Part shown: in pieces, positions 6,784 through 16,034 of the stretch | Numbering within the stretch: the first letter of the stretch is position 1 | How the letters are laid out: the number at the start of each line of letters is the position of its first letter | Origin: Roseococcus suduntuyensis | GTDB taxonomy: Bacteria > Pseudomonadota > Alphaproteobacteria > Acetobacterales > Acetobacteraceae | Direction: 5' to 3' | NCBI RefSeq assembly: GCF_014196305.1 | Contig: NZ_JACIDJ010000006.1 | Span: forward strand, 186,001 to 250,000 | DNA: 64,000 bases | Position numbers and translations under genes: made by a program | The notes under the pieces: generated by a model | Database searches by the model: none | The model's input: the letters and a program-made list of their open reading frames with translations, nothing else | Told to the model about the DNA's origin: nothing

Positions 6784-6805
6784 ATGCGAATGATTCGCAG
6801 TTGCA
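6784..6805 (+). promoter_or_regulatory. Fur-type operator upstream of the TonB-dependent receptor
   Basis: TGCGAATGATTCGCA (6785-6799) is a perfect 7-1-7 inverted repeat, the form expected for a Fur-family iron box in alphaproteobacteria, followed by GTTGCA. A possible -35 hexamer TTGACG (6778-6783) sits directly before it, so bound repressor would cover the promoter. A copy matching at 20 of 22 positions lies between yejA and yejB (11592-11613). Binding by Fur rather than another family member is inferred. Confidence 0.7.
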
Positions 6806-6836
6806 GTGTGGCCCTCAACCCTGGGAGAGCCACAAC

Positions 6837-9131
6837 ATGCCCCACCCGTCCCGCCGCCGGCGGCGGACCCCGCTTGCGATCGCATTGATCGCGGGCGGCC
6901 TCACCCCCATCGCCGCCTCGCCCTGGCACGCCGCCCGCGCGCAGACGCCCGAGCCCAATCCGGCCGATGTCCGCCTCGATGCCGGCATGCTGCTGCCCCC
7001 CGTGAACACCACCGCGCTGCGCAATGAGCGCCGCCTGTTCGACACGCCGGCCACCGTGGACGTGATCCCGGGCCGCGATCTGGATGAACGCATGGTGCGC
7101 AACGCCGAGGACGTGTTCCGCTACACCCCCGGCGTCTTCGTGAACCGCCAGACCAGCGGCACCGACCCCTTCCGCAGCCTGGGCGGCATCACCATCCGCG
7201 GCGTCGGCAGCAACCGCGTGCTGACGCTGGTGGACGGCTTCCGCACGCTGGAGCGCATCACCGACAACACGCGCGACGTGGTGGACCCCTGGAACCTCAG
7301 CCGCGTCGAGATCCTGCGCGGTCCGGGCTCGGTCCTCTATGGCTCGGACGCGCTGGGCGGCGTGGTGAACTACATCACCCGCAACCCCAACGACCTGATC
7401 CGGCCGGGGCGCACATGGGGCGGCGAGATCGGCACGAGCTGGGATTCGCTGGACAACAGCCTGGTCACCCGCGGCACCTATGCGGTGCGGGCGGGCGATG
7501 TCTCGGCCATGCTCTCCTACCAGCGGCGCGATGCGGATGAGCCGCGGCGCACCCGCTCGCGCTCGGTGGGCGGCATCTGGAACTGCCCCCGCAACCCACA
7601 GGCGACGCCCTGCGACCGCTTCGACCCGCTCGACATCAGCAGCAACAACGTCTTCGGCCGCATCGTCTGGGACCCCAACCCCGATGTGCGCCTGCGCGTG
7701 ACGGGCGAATGGCTGGACCGCAGCACCGATGTGGACCAGCGCTATGACCTGGGCGCGGCGACGGGGGGCATCACCAACCTCTCCTACCTCCGCAACCAGA
7801 CCATAAGGCGCGGGCTCTTCGCGGTGGACGGGCAGTATCGCCCGCAGGTCTCCTGGCTGGACGAGGTGCGCGTCATGCTGGGCTATTCGCCGCAGACCAT
7901 CGAGCGCACAGGCACGCGGCTGCGGCGCCTGGCCAATGGCCAGGAGCAGACGGTGCGTGACGCGCTGACCTATTCCGAGGACCTGCTCCAGGGCGAGGCA
8001 CAGTTCCGCTCCAGCTTCGACCTGCTGGGCGCCCGCCATGTGCTGACCTATGGCTTCGCGGGCAGCCTGACGGCCACCGACTATGCGCGCGAGGACGTGA
8101 CCACGAACCTCGCCACGGGTGTCGTCACCACCGCCCGCGCCGGCGGCTTCAACTTCGCCAATGCCGACACGCGCCGGCTGGAGGGCTTCCTCCAGGACGA
8201 GGTGACGCTGTTTGGCGGGCGCCTCACCCTCACCCCCGGGATGCGCCTGTCCAACACCAACATCACCCCACGCCCCGACGCGGATTATCGCCTGGTGACG
8301 GGGCGGGAGCCGCGGACGCTCGACCAGACGAACCTGGCTTTCGGCGTCGGCGCCATCCTGCGGCTGGATGAGCGTTTCTCGCTCTACGGAAACTACGGCG
8401 AGGGCTTCAAGATGCCCACCGCCGAGCAGCTCTTCACCTCGCTGCCCAGCACCACCTTCAACCTGATCCCCAACCCCAACCTGCGGCCCGAGCAGGTGCG
8501 CAGCTATGAGGCCGGCGTGCGGATGCAGTTGCAGAACGCCTGGCTCAGCCTGGGCGCCTTCCGTGGCGAATACACGGACTTCATCCAGAGCTTCGTCAGC
8601 ATCCCGAACAGCATCGACATCACCTACCAGAACCTCAGCGAGGTGACGTTGCAGGGCATCGAGGTGGCGGGCGCCTGGCGGGCGCATCCGCGCTGGCTCT
8701 TGCAGGCTTCCGCGTCCTGGCAGGAAGGAACGCAGCGCGTGACGCGCGGTGCGGCGCGCACCAATTTCGACGGCGCGCGCCCCTTCCTGATCAGCAGCGG
8801 CGTCACCTATGAGGACCCGGACCTCCGGCTGCGCGTCTCGCTCAACAACATCACCTCGGCCGGGGTGACGCAGGTCAGCGACCCGCAGCGCTACCGCCCG
8901 CCCGCCTACACCGTGTTCGACCTGACGGCGTCCTGGCGGCCCATCGAGCGGCTGGAGCTGAACGCCGGCGTCTTCAACCTGCTGAACGCCCGCTACGTGC
9001 CGCTGGCGCCGGGGGGGACGAGCTACAACCAGTCGCGCTTCACGACCGACGACACGAAGCGCGTGAACCCGATCGAGCTGCAGGTCGCACCCGGCACCAG
9101 CTTCCGCGTGGGTGCCCGCTACACCTTCTGA
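6837..9131 (+). CDS. TonB-dependent outer-membrane receptor, heme/hemoglobin type
   Basis: A 764-residue outer-membrane protein with an Arg-rich N-terminus, a hydrophobic signal segment ending near ARAQ, a plug domain (about 50-170) and a 22-strand barrel ending in the aromatic residue Phe (RVGARYTF). The plug shows ITIRGVGSNRVLTLVDGFR and LRGPGSVLYGSDALGGVVNY, as in the TonB-hemin/hemoglobin receptor group. In the barrel, FKMPTAEQLF and NPNLRPE correspond to the FRAP and NPNL boxes of heme receptors, but no histidine lies between them. It would use TonB-ExbBD energy to import heme or another iron ligand into the periplasm. A GGGAGAG sequence precedes the ATG at 6837, and a Fur-type box is 31 bases upstream of the start. 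Confidence 0.85.
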   Translation: MPHPSRRRRRTPLAIALIAGGLTPIAASPWHAARAQTPEPNPADVRLDAGMLLPPVNTTALRNERRLFDTPATVDVIPGRDLDERMVRNAEDVFRYTPGVFVNRQTSGTDPFRSLGGITIRGVGSNRVLTLVDGFRTLERITDNTRDVVDPWNLSRVEILRGPGSVLYGSDALGGVVNYITRNPNDLIRPGRTWGGEIGTSWDSLDNSLVTRGTYAVRAGDVSAMLSYQRRDADEPRRTRSRSVGGIWNCPRNPQATPCDRFDPLDISSNNVFGRIVWDPNPDVRLRVTGEWLDRSTDVDQRYDLGAATGGITNLSYLRNQTIRRGLFAVDGQYRPQVSWLDEVRVMLGYSPQTIERTGTRLRRLANGQEQTVRDALTYSEDLLQGEAQFRSSFDLLGARHVLTYGFAGSLTATDYAREDVTTNLATGVVTTARAGGFNFANADTRRLEGFLQDEVTLFGGRLTLTPGMRLSNTNITPRPDADYRLVTGREPRTLDQTNLAFGVGAILRLDERFSLYGNYGEGFKMPTAEQLFTSLPSTTFNLIPNPNLRPEQVRSYEAGVRMQLQNAWLSLGAFRGEYTDFIQSFVSIPNSIDITYQNLSEVTLQGIEVAGAWRAHPRWLLQASASWQEGTQRVTRGAARTNFDGARPFLISSGVTYEDPDLRLRVSLNNITSAGVTQVSDPQRYRPPAYTVFDLTASWRPIERLELNAGVFNLLNARYVPLAPGGTSYNQSRFTTDDTKRVNPIELQVAPGTSFRVGARYTF

Positions 9132-9139
9132 CGGCGCCA

Positions 9140-9838
9140 TCACCCCCCGCCGAGGGCCAGCACCTCGGCGGGGGAGAGGCCCGTCAGGCTCTCCCGCGCC
9201 TCGCCCAGCGGCGGGTCATCGGCCCGGCCCCATTGCACGATCAGGTTGCGGCGCGAACGGCCCGAAAGGTTGGGCGCGCCGCCATGCAGCACCCGCGAAT
9301 GGATCAGCACGATGCCCCCCGGCGGGCAGCGCGCCACCACCGCCGCCGCGCCTTCCGCCCCGTGCTGGGAGCCGGGACGGAAGGCGGTGCCGCCATTGGC
9401 CGCGTCCATCCCGTCCAGGCAGATCATGGCGCGCAGGAAGGTGCTGCGGGCGGTGGGCATGTAGCGGTTCAGCGCGTCGCGGTGCCAGGCGATGCCGCTG
9501 CCGCATCGCGCGGCCTTGATGGTGGCGTTGGTGAAGTGGCAGCGCAGTTCCGGGGTGCCGAGCAATTCGCTCGCCGCCGCGACCAGGGCCGGATGCGCGA
9601 AGCCCTCCGCGAAGACGGGATCGGCCCGGCAGGGGTCGCCCAGCAGGAAGACCGCATCGCCGGGTGCCGGCAGCCCCTGTCGCTGGCGGGGAGAGAGGTC
9701 CCGCTCCCAGGTCACCATGTCGGCGGGCAGCGTGGCCGCGCGGGCCAGCAGCGCGTCCAGCGCGGCCCCAAGGCGCCGGCGCAGCGCCGCGGGCAGGGGT
9801 GGCAGCACGGCATAGCCCTGGCATTGGAAACGCCTCAT
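9140..9838 (-). CDS. PhyH-family Fe(II)/2-oxoglutarate dioxygenase-like protein
   Basis: A 232-residue protein of the phytanoyl-CoA dioxygenase (PhyH) type. It has the iron-binding HxD (WHRDALNRY), the distal His in LIHSRVLHGGAPN and a following Arg-rich strand (SGRSRRNLIVQWG) that could bind 2-oxoglutarate. The start ATG overlaps the yejA stop codon in a 4-base ATGA, so it is translationally coupled to the transporter binding protein. An oxygenase in an iron-regulated uptake operon could modify the imported ligand, but nothing in the sequence names the substrate. It converges with the TonB receptor, eight bases apart. Confidence 0.75.
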   Translation of the reverse strand: MRRFQCQGYAVLPPLPAALRRRLGAALDALLARAATLPADMVTWERDLSPRQRQGLPAPGDAVFLLGDPCRADPVFAEGFAHPALVAAASELLGTPELRCHFTNATIKAARCGSGIAWHRDALNRYMPTARSTFLRAMICLDGMDAANGGTAFRPGSQHGAEGAAAVVARCPPGGIVLIHSRVLHGGAPNLSGRSRRNLIVQWGRADDPPLGEARESLTGLSPAEVLALGGG

Positions 9839-11607
9839 TCCGTCTCCCGGCACCACCAGGCGTCGTCACCATAGCCGAAGCGCGGCTGGCGCGGCGGCGG
9901 GGCGAAGCGTGCGGAGACGGCCAGGCGCCGCACCGGATCGTAGCGTCCCGGAACCACCAGCCATTGCCATTGCAGGGCGCGGTCCAGCACGCGGGCCGCG
10001 GTGACCAGGCTGGCGCGGTCGGGCGCGGCCTCCAGCCGGTCCAGCAGCAGGTCCATCTCCGGCCGCGCAAGGCCCGTGGTGTTGTTGGCGCCTGTCGAAC
10101 CCCACAGCGCGCGCTGTTCCGGCCCCGGCCATTCGGGCGGGATGGTGAAGCGATAGGCGAGGTCGAAATCATGGGCGCGCAGCCGCGCGGTGAAGCCGGG
10201 CGCGTCCAGCACCTCGAAGCGCGGTGCGATGCCCAGCCGCCGCAGCCCACGGAACCACACGCCCACCAGCGCCTGTTGCGCGTTGCTCTGCGCCAGCACC
10301 GAGAGCTGGAAGACCTCGCCCGTCTCGCGGTGCGCGAGGCGCCCATCCGTGGCGCGTGGCGCCCATCCGGCCGCGTCCAGCAGGCCCAGCGCGCGTTCCA
10401 GCAGGGTGCGGTCCCGGCCGGAACCATCGCTGGTGGGCGGCTGCCAAGGGCGCTGCCAGGCCTCGGGTGAGAAGAGGGCCGACACCTCGGCCATCAGCGC
10501 GCGTTCGGCGGCGTCCGGCGCCTCGGTGGCCGCCAGGTCGGAATTGAGGAAGAAGCTCCCGGCGCGCTCGCTTGCGCCCTGGAAGAGGGCGGCATTGGCC
10601 CACTCGAAATCCATCATCAGCGCCAGTGCCTCGCGCACCCGCACATCGGCGAAGCGGTCGCGGCGGAGGTTGAAGGCGAAGCCGTTCATGCCGGTGATGT
10701 GGCCGTGCCGCTGGCTGTGGCGGATGAGGCGCCCGTCATGCACCGCGGGCAGGTCATAGCCGGTGGCCCAGCGGCGGGCGTCGTTCTCCACCATCCAGTC
10801 CACGCGGCCGGCCGCCAGCGCCTCGAAGACGGCGATGCGGTCGCGGAAATAGCGCAGCTCGATCCGGTCCATATTGTGGCGGCCGCGCCCTGCGGCGGTG
10901 GCATCGCCCCACCAATCCGTGTTGCGGGCGAAGGTGACGCGCTGGCCCGCCTCCACCTCCACCACGCGATAGGGGCCGGAGCCCACGGGGGTTTCCAAGG
11001 TCAGCGCGCCGAAGTCGCGGCCCTGCCAGATGTGGCGGGGCAGGATGTGGACGTCGCCGATCTGCAAGGCGAGGCGCCGCGCATCGCCGGGTGGCAGCGC
11101 GATGCGGACCGTGCGCGCATCCTCGGCCACGGCATCGACGCGTTCCAGCAACGCGCGGTGGAAGGGGCGGCCGTGGCGCCCCAGGGTGGCGAAGCTGAAC
11201 ACCACATCCCCGGCCGTCACGGGCTGGCCATCATGCCAGCGGGCACCCTCGCGCAGCGTGAAGCGCAGGGTGCGCGTGGCCTCGTCCAATTCCACCGCCT
11301 CGGCCAGGTTCGCATAGCCCACCAGCACCTCGTCGGGCGCGGGCAGCAGCAGGGTTTCGTAGACCCAGCGCCAGACACCCATGACGAAGCGGCCGCGCAG
11401 GGTGAAGGGGTTCAGCGTGTCGAAGGTGCCCGCCTGCGCCATGCGGAGGGTGCAGCCGCGCGGCGCGTCGGGGCGCACATGGGGCCAATGGTTGAAGCCC
11501 GGCGGTAGGGCAGGGGTGCCGTGGACGGCCAGCGCGTCGGTGCGCGCCGCGGCGGGGTGCAGCAGCAGGGGAAGCAGGGCCAGGCCCCATATGCAAGTGC
11601 GAGTCAT
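9835..11607 (-). CDS. yejA: YejA-type extracellular solute-binding protein (SBP_bac_5)
   Basis: A 590-residue periplasmic binding protein, close to E. coli YejA (about 604). A signal peptide (TRTCIWGLALLPLLLHPAAA) is followed by the YejA-like opening FNHWPHVRPDAPRGCTLRMA and AGTFDTLNPFTLRGRF; the mature part is the cluster-C peptide-binding fold (family 5). In enterobacteria YejABEF takes up peptides and microcin C; here the neighbours point to heme or an iron ligand instead. Start codons at 11607 and 11613 (MRMTRTC) both lie inside the Fur-type palindrome, and neither has a ribosome binding site. The frame stays open far upstream but that part runs antisense to yejB and is not coding. It is divergent from yejB. 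Confidence 0.85.
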   Translation of the reverse strand: MTRTCIWGLALLPLLLHPAAARTDALAVHGTPALPPGFNHWPHVRPDAPRGCTLRMAQAGTFDTLNPFTLRGRFVMGVWRWVYETLLLPAPDEVLVGYANLAEAVELDEATRTLRFTLREGARWHDGQPVTAGDVVFSFATLGRHGRPFHRALLERVDAVAEDARTVRIALPPGDARRLALQIGDVHILPRHIWQGRDFGALTLETPVGSGPYRVVEVEAGQRVTFARNTDWWGDATAAGRGRHNMDRIELRYFRDRIAVFEALAAGRVDWMVENDARRWATGYDLPAVHDGRLIRHSQRHGHITGMNGFAFNLRRDRFADVRVREALALMMDFEWANAALFQGASERAGSFFLNSDLAATEAPDAAERALMAEVSALFSPEAWQRPWQPPTSDGSGRDRTLLERALGLLDAAGWAPRATDGRLAHRETGEVFQLSVLAQSNAQQALVGVWFRGLRRLGIAPRFEVLDAPGFTARLRAHDFDLAYRFTIPPEWPGPEQRALWGSTGANNTTGLARPEMDLLLDRLEAAPDRASLVTAARVLDRALQWQWLVVPGRYDPVRRLAVSARFAPPPRQPRFGYGDDAWWCRETE

Positions 11608-11613
11608 TCGCAT
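11592..11613 (-). promoter_or_regulatory. Second Fur-type operator, between yejA and yejB
   Basis: Read on the minus strand, TGCGAATGACTCGCA (11612-11598) differs at one base from the box before the TonB receptor, and the similarity continues through the flanking TTGCA. On the plus strand TATAAA (11613-11618) lies just beyond it and could be the -10 of yejB. The two candidate yejA start codons are embedded in the box, so operator and coding sequence overlap. The site could control both divergent operons. Confidence 0.68.
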
Positions 11614-11643
11614 ATAAAGCGGCGAAAGGAGCCCGCCGGCAAC

Positions 11644-12735
11644 ATGCCCTCCATGGTCCGCTACACCTTGCGCCGCCTGCTGCTGGTGCCGCCCACGCTG
11701 CTCGCCATCCTCGCGCTGAACTTCGCGGTGGCGCAGCTCGCCCCCGGCGGCCCGGTCGAGCACCTGCTGGCCACGCTGCAAGGCGATATGCAGGACGCCG
11801 CCGAGCGCGCGCTGGGCGGCCAGGACAGCACCGCGGCACCCGACCCCGCCTTCCGCCATCGCGGCGCCGAAGGCCTCGATCCGCGCCTGCTGGCCGAGAT
11901 CGAGGCGCAGTTCGGCTTCGACCGCCCGCCGCTGGAGCGCTTCTGGCACATGCTGACGCGGCTGCTGGTGTTCGACCTCGGGCGCTCCTTCTTCCTCGAC
12001 CAGCCGGTGGCGCAACTGCTGTGGGAGAGACTGCCGGTCTCCATCGCACTTGGCCTGTCCTCGGCCGTGCTGACCTATGTGCTGGCCATCCCGCTCGGCA
12101 TCGCGCTGGCCACGCGGCGCGGCACGGGCTTCGACCGGACGGCCACCGCGCTCACCGTGCTGGCCCATGCGGTGCCGGCCATGGTGGTGGCGGTGGCGCT
12201 GCTGGTGATCTTCGGCGGCGGGCGGTTCCTCGCCTGGTTTCCCTCGGGCGGCCTCGCCTCGCCGGAGGCCGCCGGCTGGGGCTGGCCCTGGCGTGTGCTG
12301 GACCTCGCCTGGCACCTCGCCTTGCCGGTGGCGGCGCTGGTGATCTCGGGCTTCTCCTCGCTCGCGCTGCTCACGCGCAACCTCTTCCTGGAGGAGATCG
12401 GCAAGCATTACGTCCTGCTGGCCCGCGCCAAGGGACTGGCACCCCGCCGCGTGCTGCTGGGCCATGTCTTCCGCAACGCCATGCTGCTGGTGGTGGCGGG
12501 CCTGCCCGGCGCGCTGCTGGGCGTGGTCTTCGGCGGCGGCGTGCTGATTGAGGCGCTGTTCGGGCTGCAGGGCCTCGGGCTGCTTGGCATCGAGGCCGCG
12601 CTCAGCCGGGACTTCCCCGTGATCTTCGGCACGCTCTGGCTGACGACCCTGGCGGGGCTGGTGCTGCACCTCGCTTCGGACCTTCTCTACGTGGCGGTGG
12701 ACCCGCGGATCGGCTTCGATGCGGCCCGGCGCTGA
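11644..12735 (+). CDS. yejB: YejB-type ABC transporter permease
   Basis: A 363-residue inner-membrane permease. The N-terminus (RYTLRRLLLVPPTLLAIL then APGGPVEHLLATLQGDM) and the cytoplasmic EAA-loop region (YVLLARAKGLAPRRVLLGH, then FRNAMLLVVAGLPGALLG) match YejB rather than generic DppB. It also has the long YejB periplasmic insertion after the first helix and the C-terminal DLLYVAVDPRIGFD. The ATG at 11644 has AAGGAG twelve bases before it. The next gene starts four bases after the stop, so the two are in one operon. It forms the membrane channel together with the YejE half of the fusion protein. Confidence 0.9.
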   Translation: MPSMVRYTLRRLLLVPPTLLAILALNFAVAQLAPGGPVEHLLATLQGDMQDAAERALGGQDSTAAPDPAFRHRGAEGLDPRLLAEIEAQFGFDRPPLERFWHMLTRLLVFDLGRSFFLDQPVAQLLWERLPVSIALGLSSAVLTYVLAIPLGIALATRRGTGFDRTATALTVLAHAVPAMVVAVALLVIFGGGRFLAWFPSGGLASPEAAGWGWPWRVLDLAWHLALPVAALVISGFSSLALLTRNLFLEEIGKHYVLLARAKGLAPRRVLLGHVFRNAMLLVVAGLPGALLGVVFGGGVLIEALFGLQGLGLLGIEAALSRDFPVIFGTLWLTTLAGLVLHLASDLLYVAVDPRIGFDAARR

Positions 12736-12739
12736 CCTG

Positions 12740-15208
12740 ATGCGGCGCCGCAGCCTCTGGGCGTTGGGCCTCGTGCTGCTGCTGGTGCTGCCGGCGGAGT
12801 TCGTGGCCAATGACCGGCCCATCCTGCTCTGGCTGGACGGGCGGCTGCTGGTGCCCGCGCTGCAACCCGTTACCGAGGCCATGCTGGGCGGGGCTCTGCC
12901 CATCCCCGCCGATTTCCACGACCCCGCCGTGGCGGCGCTGCTGGAGGCGCGGGGTGCCGTCAGCCTCTGGCCGCCCATCCCGCACGGGCCGGCCAGCATC
13001 CCGCCCGGCCTGCCCGCCGCAGCGCCCGCGCCGCCCTCGGCGCTGCATTGGCTCGGCACCGACGACCAGTCGCGCGACGTGCTGGCGCGGCTGATCTGGG
13101 GGGCGCGGCTTTCCCTCGTTTTCGCCGTGATCGTGACCGCGGCCTCCTTGCTCATCGGCCTGCCGCTGGGCGCCTGGCAGGGCTATGCGGCGGGGCGCAC
13201 CGACCTCGTGCTGCAACGCCTGACCGAAATCTGGTCCGGGGTGCCGCTGCTGTTCCTGCTGATGATCGTGGTGGCGGCGCTGGCCCCTTCGGTCTGGGTG
13301 CTGGCGGCCACCATGTCGCTGTTCTTCTGGATGGGCATCGCGGGCGTCACGCGCGCCGAATTCCTGCGCCTGCGCGCGCAGGATTTCGTGCGCTCGGCGC
13401 TGGCGGCCGGGGCGGGGCCCGCGCGGATCATGCGCGTCCATATCCTGCCCAACGCCATGGGCCCTGTGCTGGCCATGCTGCCCTTCCTGATGGCGGGTGC
13501 GATGACCATGCTGGCGGGGCTCGACCTGCTCGGGCTCGGCCTGCCGCCGGGCACGCCCTCGCTCGGCGAGGCCTTGGCCCAGGCGCGCAACAACCTCCAG
13601 GCGCCCTGGCTCGCGCTCGGTGCCATCGCGGCCCTGGGCGGCCTGCTGCTGCTGCTGACGCTGCTGGGCCAGGCGCTGCGCGACGCCATGGACCCGCGCC
13701 TGCCCGCACGCCGCACTGCCGTCACGCCGGGTGCGGCCATGGTGCCGGAAGGCGCGGTGCTGGCCATCACCGAAGTGCGCGCGGGCTTCACCGCCGCACC
13801 CGTGCTGCACGGCGTCACCCTGGCGTTGCGGCCGGGCGAGGCGGTGGCGCTGCTGGGCGAATCCGGTTCGGGCAAGACGCTGACGGGGTTGATCGCGGCG
13901 GGGCTCGCGCCGCCGCAGCTCGGTTTCATCAGTGGGTCGGTGCGGCTGATGGGCGCCGAGATGCTGGGCGCGCCCGAACCCCGCCGCCGCGCCGCGCTGC
14001 GCCGGCAGCTGGGCCTGGTCTTCCAGGAACCTGGCGCCGCGCTCAATCCGCTGCACGCCCTCTACCGCCAGGTGCGCGAGGCGGTGGAGGCCGGCGGGCT
14101 GCACGGCGCCGCCGCACGTGCCGAAACGGATGCCTTGCTGCGCCGCGTGGGCCTGCCCGAGGCCAGTCGCCGCCCACGCGCGCTGCCGCACCAGTTCTCG
14201 GGAGGGCAACAGCAGCGCGCCGTCATCGCCATGGCCATCGCCCGGCGCCCCGCCTTGCTGGTGGCGGACGAGCCCACCGCCTCGCTCGACGCGCCGCTGC
14301 GGGCGGGGCTGCTCGACCTTCTGGCCGGGCTGGTGCGGGAGCGGGGCATGGCCCTGCTGCTCATCACCCACGACCTCGACGCCGCCCGCCGGGCCACCAC
14401 CCGTGTGGCCGTGATGGGGGAGGGGCGCATCCTGGCCGACCTGCCCTGGGAGGTGGCGCTGCGCGCGCCCCCGCCCGCGCTGCACCGCCTCATGCCGCGC
14501 CCGCCCGCGCGCGCGCGCGCCGTCGCCCCGGCCGCCGCCCCGGTGCTGGAGGCGCGGGACATGACCCTCGCCTTTCCAGGAGCCGCGCCGTTGATCGAGG
14601 GATTGGAGCTGCAACTCCATGCCGGGCGCACGCTGGCCGTCACCGGCCCCTCCGGCTGCGGCAAGACGAGCCTGGCGCTGGCCCTGCTGGGGCTGTTTCC
14701 CGGCGCGGTGCGGGGCCAGGTGCTGCTGCATGGGCGGCCGCTGGTCGAAGACCCCGGCTGGCGTCGCCGCGTGCAGATCGTCTTCCAGAACCCTGCCACC
14801 AGCCTCTCGCCGCGGCTTTCCGTGCGCGACATCGTGCTGGAACCCTTGCTGCTGGCGGGCGAGCGACGGCCGGGCGATGCGCGGCTGGTCGGTGCCCTGG
14901 CCGAGGTGGGCCTGCCCCCCACCCTGGCCGACCGGCGCCCGCACCAGCTCTCCGGCGGGCAGCGGCAGCGCGTGGCGCTGGCCCGCGCCCTCATCACCCG
15001 GCCGGAGGTGCTGGTGCTGGACGAACCCACCTCCGCCCTCGACCGCCATGTGGAGGCGGAGGTGCTGCGGTTGCTGGCCGCGCTGCAGGCCCGGCACGGC
15101 TTCGCCGCCCTGCTCATCACCCATGATCCCCGCGTGGTCGCGGCGCTGGCGCATGACGTGCTGGCGCTCGGTGCGCCCACGCCCTTGCCCGAGGAACACG
15201 CCGCATGA
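12740..15208 (+). CDS. YejE-YejF fusion: ABC permease joined to a tandem ATPase
   Basis: An 822-residue protein. Residues 1 to about 320 are a YejE-type permease (LPAEFVANDRPILLWLDG, LGTDDQSRDVLARLIWG, then VWVLAATMSLFFWMGIAGV and GLPPGTPSLGEALAQARNN, ending ALRDAMDPRLPA). Two ABC ATPase domains follow, as in YejF. The first has Walker A GESGSGKT near 373, signature FSGGQQQR near 487 and Walker B LLVADEPTASLD. The second has GPSGCGKT near 635, LSGGQRQR near 737 and VLVLDEPTSALD. In E. coli these are separate YejE (341) and YejF (529) proteins whose summed length is close to this one. Both ATPase halves look intact. The stop overlaps the next start in ATGA. Confidence 0.9.
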   Translation: MRRRSLWALGLVLLLVLPAEFVANDRPILLWLDGRLLVPALQPVTEAMLGGALPIPADFHDPAVAALLEARGAVSLWPPIPHGPASIPPGLPAAAPAPPSALHWLGTDDQSRDVLARLIWGARLSLVFAVIVTAASLLIGLPLGAWQGYAAGRTDLVLQRLTEIWSGVPLLFLLMIVVAALAPSVWVLAATMSLFFWMGIAGVTRAEFLRLRAQDFVRSALAAGAGPARIMRVHILPNAMGPVLAMLPFLMAGAMTMLAGLDLLGLGLPPGTPSLGEALAQARNNLQAPWLALGAIAALGGLLLLLTLLGQALRDAMDPRLPARRTAVTPGAAMVPEGAVLAITEVRAGFTAAPVLHGVTLALRPGEAVALLGESGSGKTLTGLIAAGLAPPQLGFISGSVRLMGAEMLGAPEPRRRAALRRQLGLVFQEPGAALNPLHALYRQVREAVEAGGLHGAAARAETDALLRRVGLPEASRRPRALPHQFSGGQQQRAVIAMAIARRPALLVADEPTASLDAPLRAGLLDLLAGLVRERGMALLLITHDLDAARRATTRVAVMGEGRILADLPWEVALRAPPPALHRLMPRPPARARAVAPAAAPVLEARDMTLAFPGAAPLIEGLELQLHAGRTLAVTGPSGCGKTSLALALLGLFPGAVRGQVLLHGRPLVEDPGWRRRVQIVFQNPATSLSPRLSVRDIVLEPLLLAGERRPGDARLVGALAEVGLPPTLADRRPHQLSGGQRQRVALARALITRPEVLVLDEPTSALDRHVEAEVLRLLAALQARHGFAALLITHDPRVVAALAHDVLALGAPTPLPEEHAA

Positions 15209-15924
15209 CCGGAACCGACCAGCCGACCCGCCAGGAACTCACCGCCAGCCCTGCCGAGATCGGACTGCTGCTGCCCGGATTGGGGCGCGTCATGGTGGCG
15301 CTCTCCGTGGGCAGTGCCGCGCATGAGCGCATCGGTCGCATCGCGCATGTGGCCCGGCGCGGCGGCGCGCTGTGCCTCGGCGGGGAGACGGAGCTTGATC
15401 TGGGCGCCGTGCGGCGTGTCGTCCTGGACCGCGGCTCGGTCATGCGGGGGCAGGTCTATCCGCGCCTCGAATTCCAGGATGGTGCCGGGACGGTGCTGAT
15501 GCGGGTGGTGGGCATGGAGGGCGAGGCGCCCTTCGAGACGAACCTGGCGCACCTGCTGGGCCCGGCCCTCACGCCGGAGGAGGCCGCGCCCACCCCTGCC
15601 GCCGAGGCGGGCCCCGAGGTCGCCGCGGAAGATTGCGCCGCCACCGCCCTGCTGCGCCGCCTGCATGCCGCGGGCGGGCCGGTGCGGGTGGCGCTGCGGA
15701 CGGGCCCGGCCTGGCAGGCCTGGGAGGGGGTGCCGCCGGAACCGCGCCTCGTCATGGGGTATGTGAACCTCATCGCGCCCAGCTTCCACCTGCATCTCAG
15801 GCTGGGCAGCGTGGCCGGCTTCCATGTGTCGGAGGAGGGCTGGGAGGCGGTGGACGGCGCCGGCGCGCGCTTTGGGCTGACCCTGCGCCCCCTCGACGCG
15901 GCCGCGCTGGAGGGGATGGGCTGA
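15205..15924 (+). CDS. Compact HmuS/ChuS-like heme-handling protein
   Basis: A 239-residue protein that reads as two short copies of the HmuS/HemS/ChuX heme-carrier repeat. The first half has LGRVMVALSVGSAAHERIG, then LCLGGETELDLGAVRRV and RLEFQDGAGTVLMRV. After an Ala/Pro-rich linker (about 112-140) the second half has VALRTGPAWQAWEG, GYVNLIAPSFHLHLRLGSV and WEAVDGAGARFGLTLRP. Family members carry or degrade heme in the cytoplasm and are usually near 345 residues (two repeats) or 165 (ChuX), so this is a shortened double form. Its start overlaps the transporter stop by ATGA, which ties the YejABEF-type importer to heme. The assignment is from motif recall and deserves a profile search. Confidence 0.7.
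   Translation: MTGTDQPTRQELTASPAEIGLLLPGLGRVMVALSVGSAAHERIGRIAHVARRGGALCLGGETELDLGAVRRVVLDRGSVMRGQVYPRLEFQDGAGTVLMRVVGMEGEAPFETNLAHLLGPALTPEEAAPTPAAEAGPEVAAEDCAATALLRRLHAAGGPVRVALRTGPAWQAWEGVPPEPRLVMGYVNLIAPSFHLHLRLGSVAGFHVSEEGWEAVDGAGARFGLTLRPLDAAALEGMG

Positions 15925-15959: not shown

Positions 15960-16034
<75 letters not shown>

Follow-up and report, generated by a model that had tools for sequence, protein, structure and literature searches.

The 64,000-nucleotide stretch of Roseococcus suduntuyensis DNA analysed here, called the window throughout (C6:186001-250000 of genome G000; the contig labels C1, C2 and so on refer to this same genome), carries a locus in which a TonB-dependent receptor of a heme-receptor family, a YejABEF-type importer and a short protein with the HmuS fold are encoded together. 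By sequence comparison the association of a Yej-type importer with a heme-family receptor and an HmuS-fold protein is conserved, and a ChaN-type gene, found here on another contig behind the same operator, is likewise a member of the module. We read these genes, with a probability of roughly 0.55, as a dedicated iron-starvation module that takes up a heme-type iron ligand of peptide character, most likely heme-carrying peptides, fragments of c-type cytochromes or of other hemoproteins. The features of the locus are the following.

6785..6799, strand not assigned: Fur-box-like operator TGCGAATGATTCGCA, in front of the receptor gene
6837..9131, + strand: TonB-dependent receptor of the hemoglobin/transferrin/lactoferrin family (TIGR01786); open frame 6801-9131, likely ATG at 6837
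9140..9838, - strand: PhyH-family dioxygenase (PF05721, 69 bits)
9835..11613, - strand: YejA-like periplasmic binding protein (SBP_bac_5)
11598..11612, - strand: Fur-box-like operator TGCGAATGACTCGCA, between yejA and yejB, overlapping the assumed yejA start
11644..12735, + strand: YejB-like permease (NF011712, 370 bits, cut-off 445)
12719..15208, + strand: YejE-YejF fusion, a permease with two ATPase domains (BPD_transp_1, two ABC_tran stretches)
15205..15924, + strand: short HmuS-fold protein of 239 residues, with HERIG and FHLHL motifs and without the axial-histidine part
15960-16034, opposite strand to the HmuS-like gene and next after it: tRNA-Val

All parts of a YejABEF system (YejA, YejB, YejE and YejF) are thus present, and the genes are grouped around the two operators. 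The receptor gene runs rightward from the first; yejA and the PhyH gene run leftward from the second, divergently from yejB, the YejE-YejF fusion gene and the HmuS-like gene, which run rightward from it. The ATG of the HmuS-like gene overlaps the stop of the fusion gene (ATGA), and the PhyH start and the yejA stop share 4 bases. Sigma-70 promoter scans at both window operators gave no match, and the promoter and terminator scan near the operators gave one terminator-like site (11620-11638, - strand).

On its own the 239-residue protein scored below the Pfam gathering thresholds (HemS 20.2 against 24, ChuX_HutX 19.4 against 25) and matched no NCBIfam model. All 32 members of its family, however, matched Pfam HemS at E≤0.01, the best at 2e-14, and the AlphaFold 2 (AF2) model of the window protein (predicted local distance difference test, pLDDT, 93.1) had its best PDB matches in ChuS, PhuS and HemS over both domains (ChuS: E 1.2e-14, TMq 0.75), so that the two-domain HemS fold is present in the model. 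The HmuS assignment holds because of these two lines of evidence, which also led us to reject a label arising by chance. Invariant in 32 of 32 aligned members are, among others, HERIG (40-44), Q171, W173, N188, F194, H195, H197 and L198. The protein is about 100 residues shorter than the HmuS encoded elsewhere in the genome (239 against 345). An orphan relative with HERIG and FHFHL was seen in locus L039 (9968-10708), where no receptor, importer or ChaN match occurred in its 20.6 kb. By TIGR01786 the window receptor is a heme/hemoglobin-family TonB receptor (326.6 bits, above the cut-off of 323.75), with TIGR01785 at 298.5 and below its cut-off of 316.85; among solved structures it comes closest to PhuR (188 bits, covering most of its length). 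Of 38 aligned receptors 37 share two cysteines, C262 and C271 in the window receptor (numbered from frame 6801), which the hmu receptor of the genome lacks and which possibly form a loop disulfide.

In the survey of the order, 14 of 395 genomes matched the HmuS-like protein at E≤1e-8, 10 of them nearly full-length; the other 4 were dropped as short matches inside longer frames, probably ordinary HmuS. YejEF adjoins the HmuS-like gene in every one of the 10, and receptor, YejA, YejB and YejEF occur together in 8 of the 10 loci, the remaining 2 being cut by contig ends (genome G044 was read through locus L011, and G196 through L063, on the same contig as L028). The PhyH dioxygenase is kept in 7 of the 10, and its place varies: it lies in the receptor-yejA gap in the 3 Roseococcus-type loci and follows the HmuS-like gene in the remaining 4. 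Across the class, 1 of 385 genomes surveyed had the protein, the source genome itself, and a family-wide survey with a single sequence gave 2 of 120; in the order and class surveys only 6 or 7 candidates were scored per genome, so misses are possible. The nearest named relative among the fetched loci was Roseococcus thiosulfatophilus RB-3, with an HmuS-like protein 94% identical.

The other alphaproteobacterial members were obtained from a plasmid search and a scan of public genome contigs, and here a different importer prevails. The plasmid tblastn gave 5 records with the protein, and all 4 opened plasmids carried a receptor, an SbmA/BacA- or ATP-binding cassette (ABC)-type importer, the HmuS-like protein and ChaN. 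The contig scan, which used two short patterns that limited what could be found, gave 31 loci, one of which (L036) repeats an opened plasmid. By tblastn with the module proteins, 27 of the 31 have an SbmA/BacA-type importer (not adjacent in L027), two have Yej (L011 and L028), and neither was found in L033, which starts at a contig edge, and in the orphan L039. A receptor is present in 29 of the 31, that of L037 being weakly similar (26%), and ChaN in 28, the exceptions being L011, L037 and L039. The 3 plasmid-borne importers run on Pfam all exceeded the cut-offs of PF06472, PF05992 and PF00005. This SbmA/BacA-type version occurs in rhizobia, Devosia and Rhodobacterales, and its importer was not seen in Yej-type loci. 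On a Paracoccus aminophilus plasmid (L006, 11859-17480), a substrate-binding protein gene, two permease genes, two ATPase genes and a DUF1684 gene lie a few kb past the SbmA-type module. The 10 Yej-linked proteins clustered together in a 40-row tree (support 99/91; recovered in 98% of 200 bootstrap replicates), the 29 rows labelled SbmA including orphan L039; the root is unsure because the branch of the HmuS outgroup is very long. A single importer exchange, in either direction, is the simplest reading.

The two operators resemble a 7-1-7 Fur box. In the window 4 strand matches with at most 2 mismatches were found against 0.29 expected. Across the whole genome the pattern TGCGAATGAYTCGCA has 3 places without mismatch, namely in front of the receptor, between yejA and yejB, and at C10:25176, immediately preceding a ChaN-family gene (L057 3029-3859, PF04187 182 bits); allowing at most 2 mismatches gave 23 strand matches, compared with 3 when the pattern was reversed as a control. 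Sites with 1-2 mismatches lie about 290 bases before the frame of the hmu receptor (C5:302351), at a Peripla_BP_2-FecCD ABC system (C9:102425; region L060 2916-9682), at a TonB receptor followed by a PKHD-type 2-oxoglutarate oxygenase (C9:106146; L060) and at a SBP_bac_6-type substrate-binding protein (C6:261466). Among complete Yej-type loci the receptor is preceded by a box with at most 3 mismatches in 8 of 8, and the yejA-yejB gap carries one in 6 of 8. The genome has three FUR-family genes, and we infer from the sequence that a Fur-type repressor exerts iron control at these putative operators, the uptake locus of the window being probably iron-controlled. The PKHD oxygenase beside the C9 TonB receptor parallels the PhyH oxygenase beside that of the window. 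No evident iron link was seen near two one-mismatch sites, C1:744095, with an N-formylglutamate amidohydrolase some 1.6 kb off, and C4:289341, with a histidine phosphatase and a HAD hydrolase nearby; further sites of the pattern are C1:923607, C1:1069882, C2:68545 and C4:210899.

The sequence-only reading of this DNA had placed a heme-type receptor, a YejA/YejB/YejE-F importer and an HmuS-like protein in one locus, with two near-identical operators linking receptor and importer and with the HmuS-like gene overlapping the transporter stop. The Pfam, NCBIfam and structural matches, the shuffled sequences (0 of 100 reached as many operator matches as the window) and the coordinates (15205 against a fusion end at 15208) bear all of this out. 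It had also proposed a survey for Yej-type genes beside HmuS-like genes, which succeeded in 10 of 10 order genomes with the nearly full-length protein, and a HemS/ChuX profile search of the 239-residue protein, which failed for the single sequence and succeeded for the family. It had not included the PhyH dioxygenase, the remote ChaN-type gene that shares the operator, or the module's SbmA/BacA-type form.

ChaN matches at E≤1e-20 were found in 13 of the 395 order genomes, one of them in two pieces (G399), and these 13 include 9 of the 10 that carry the HmuS-like gene. This co-occurrence has a hypergeometric P of 1e-14, not corrected for kinship; among 14 listed genomes of the same genus ChaN is present in 3 of 3 with the HmuS-like gene and in 0 of 11 without it (0.0027, kinship again not corrected). 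In 8 of the 9 Yej-type genomes ChaN is on another contig or far off, some of these contigs being so short that adjacency is possible in some, and a box with at most 2 mismatches precedes it in 8 of 9 (not in G311). Four order genomes have ChaN and no HmuS-like match. In one of them, G264, ChaN lies beside a receptor, YejA and YejB of the module type with two boxes of 3 mismatches, and the lack of an HmuS-like match cannot be judged because the sequence is N from just after yejB; in G043 and G049 no box was found before ChaN. By eye, 17 N-termini of ChaN-type proteins showed no evident signal peptide, and 16 of the 17 have no Cys in the first 30 residues; the proteins are therefore probably cytoplasmic, unlike the record name 'ChaN family lipoprotein'. 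The structural model of this genome's ChaN-type protein (pLDDT 91.6) matched ChaN 2g5g first, followed by HopBA1, erythromycin-esterase-type proteins (EreC) and the RRSP domain. All 17 ChaN-type proteins compared keep E39, H41, E69 and H215 and thereby have the 2His/2Glu set of the TIKI/ChaN group. In the TIKI endopeptidase RRSP, Glu3900, His3902 and Glu3930 are described with the spacing seen here for the first three (PMC6254334), and the fourth, the second His, is spaced differently from the RRSP set.

The window locus is not alone in its genome. A second yej-type cluster at C5:105-112 kb, with identities to the window proteins of 41% (YejA), 53% (YejB) and 44% (YejE/F), rules out that the window holds the only Yej of the cell. 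Curated Yej models were not reached by the window importer (besides NF011712, NF011596 at 280 of 439 and NF011713 at 357 of 834), and the closest solved proteins to its YejA-like component were 4ony, MbnE 5icq and 7z8e, then entries named YejA (352 bits with 7z8e, 312 with entries named YejA, against 568 and 448 for the YejA of the second cluster). By these comparisons the window importer is an additional, more diverged Yej-type copy. At C5:296000-308539 lie an exbB/tolQ-type gene, tonB, a receptor that passes the cut-offs of both heme-receptor models (TIGR01785 at 514 bits), an HmuS of full length (356 bits to PhuS) and HmuT-, HmuU- and HmuV-type genes. Only the HmuV-type gene passes a heme-specific cut-off (NF010068, 305 of 261), the HmuT- and HmuU-type genes matching BtuF/BtuC-type models below cut-off and being named by family and place. 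An organism without hmuTUV is thereby ruled out. The sequence-only reading was right that HmuT, HmuU and HmuV are missing from the locus and wrong for the genome, and its view that the Yej-type importer serves the cell instead of HmuTUV has to be given up; of the two findings it had named as jointly counting against it, hmuTUV elsewhere and unchanged heme use after deletion of the Yej-type genes, the first was made here.

Which ligand is carried depends on the heme contacts. At the columns of PhuR His124 and Tyr519, its heme ligands, the window receptor has Thr and Phe (the numbering fits a constant offset). Over 38 receptors, a set with several near-copies, these columns hold His in 0 and Tyr in 8, which is a weak test, the genome's hmu receptor also lacking His there. 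His was also counted over two receptor stretches, plug DG to RD and FKMP to NPNL; 37 of the 38 have none in either, and His occurs in both stretches of the hmu receptor and of the L037 receptor, a weak relative. In the HmuS-like family the profile aligns to HemS 41-184 and 222-293 and skips the part between, which contains the DVHEFF helix with His196, the axial heme ligand; in this alignment the axial histidine has no counterpart, which weakens free heme as the ligand. His is present in at least 8 of 32 rows only at positions 40, 195 and 197, and His195 of FHLHL is new compared with PhuS (FNLHL) and with HemS and ChuS (FTLHL), which have Asn or Thr there. The column aligned to HemS Arg102 has R in 15 of 32 rows and E in the window protein.

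If free heme b were nevertheless the ligand, the Yej-type importer would be a second heme permease and His195 a relocated ligand. Such a role would agree with the heme-family receptor and the HmuS fold, FHLHL would be a plausible new ligand, and transport of a tetrapyrrole-like compound by an importer of peptide type has a precedent in the BacA homologue Rv1819c, which carries corrinoids (PMC3603451). It is hard to reconcile with the hmuTUV-type genes of the same genome, with the skipped axial-His part, with the 37 receptors lacking the histidines of the hmu receptor and with a hydrolase-fold ChaN partner that would have no obvious task with free heme. We regard it as a serious but less likely alternative, which overlaps with the hemopeptide reading in so far as the latter leaves room for free heme. 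Two unrelated peptide importers and the lost ligands favour a peptide-like heme ligand over free heme. The earlier proposal that the Yej-type importer carries heme or a heme-like ligand accordingly keeps the backing of the conserved locus and is weakened as far as free heme is meant.

The ligand could also be a peptide- or ester-containing siderophore or an iron-peptide complex rather than a tetrapyrrole, with ChaN opening it in the cytoplasm, as Fes-type esterases open enterobactin, and with the HmuS-like protein reused as a holder. Both module versions have peptide importers, the next structural matches of the ChaN-type model, after ChaN, include EreC and RRSP, heme ligands are lost in the receptor and the HmuS-like protein, the operator is Fur-box-like, and the YejA-like protein scores higher with MbnE than with entries named YejA, as does the other YejA of the genome. 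This possibility is about as probable as free heme and less so than a hemopeptide; against it, the receptor, HmuS-like and ChaN-type proteins all come from heme-handling families, and the closest solved receptor is PhuR. Finally, an ordinary peptide importer standing by chance between a receptor and a decayed HmuS gene, which the scores of YejB and YejEF below the curated cut-offs might suggest, is very improbable and already contradicted by conservation, with YejEF adjacent in all 10 order genomes, operators conserved, the ATGA overlap, the SbmA/BacA-type version in 27 of 31 loci and invariant HmuS-like motifs.

A hemopeptide ligand is favoured because two unrelated families of peptide importers fill one place beside the same receptor, HmuS-like and ChaN partners, because the heme-ligating residues of known relatives are missing where a substrate that brings its own ligand would make them dispensable, and because a hydrolase-fold partner is conserved. 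In the proposed order of steps the TonB receptor would carry the ligand over the outer membrane, and YejA, YejB and YejEF, or the SbmA/BacA-type importer elsewhere, would take it across the inner membrane. The short HmuS-fold protein would receive it in the cytoplasm and, its own axial His being lost, would use a ligand supplied by the substrate or the invariant His195. The ChaN-type protein, of the TIKI superfamily and with its 2His/2Glu set kept, would cut the peptide or ester part, and a Fur-type repressor would control receptor, importer and chaN through one operator type. Precedents are that SbmA and YejABEF take up one and the same peptide, corramycin (PMC10099666), and that Pden_1323, encoded in an opp cluster, has lost its ligating His and is described to degrade c-type hemopeptides (PMC8131568). 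The pathway in full, with receptor, exchangeable peptide importer, HmuS relative with peptide-His ligation, trimming TIKI hydrolase and one iron operator type (in the Yej version), is put forward tentatively.

Several points weigh against the hemopeptide interpretation. The nature of the ligand is read from sequence and predicted structure, and even heme binding by the receptor is uncertain, 37 of 38 lacking the hmu-receptor histidines. Free heme is probably already served by the hmu genes, which fits another ligand and also allows a non-heme one. The genome gave no PF01126 heme oxygenase (the search did not extend to HugZ-type enzymes), G383 showed no ChaN even when searched alone, and none of the 7 SbmA/BacA-type loci scanned had the operator with at most 3 mismatches, so the shared operator is established for the Yej-type version of the module only. 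The ChaN of Campylobacter binds heme according to the title of 2g5g, and no peptidase activity of any ChaN was found reported in the open-access literature.

Each part of the module belongs to a known family. With HmuRSTUV/PhuRSTUVW the module shares the heme-family TonB receptor, the HmuS-fold protein and the Fur-box-like operator, but has no HmuT/U/V, its importer being of a peptide type (SBP_bac_5, BPD_transp_1, Opp/Yej-type ATPases), and it has ChaN-type and PhyH partners. YejABEF, an importer of peptides and microcin C, has the same four parts, whereas in the window YejE and YejF are fused, yejA is divergent, the operator is Fur-box-like and the importer is tied to a TonB receptor. SbmA/BacA-type proteins such as Rv1819c fill the importer's place in the 27 loci named above. 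The opp cluster of Paracoccus denitrificans with Pden_1323 similarly joins peptide importer genes to a heme-handling protein without its ligating histidine, but that protein has a HugZ-type fold, not HmuS, and the main text of the source names no TonB (PMC8131568). The ChaN of Campylobacter jejuni (2g5g) is the best structural match of the module's ChaN-type protein, which differs in having no evident signal peptide by eye. Neither the combination nor the importer exchange nor an unlinked ChaN behind the same operator was found described in the open-access PMC titles and abstract starts listed.

Should the hemopeptide interpretation be right, bacteria possess a pathway devoted to obtaining iron from peptides that bear heme, which is how c-type cytochromes would be released when cells are broken down. 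Such a pathway would account for the side-by-side occurrence of peptide importers and HmuS relatives lacking the heme ligand, it would point to an enzymatic function of some ChaN-family proteins, and the module offers a ready gene set for testing hemopeptide uptake.

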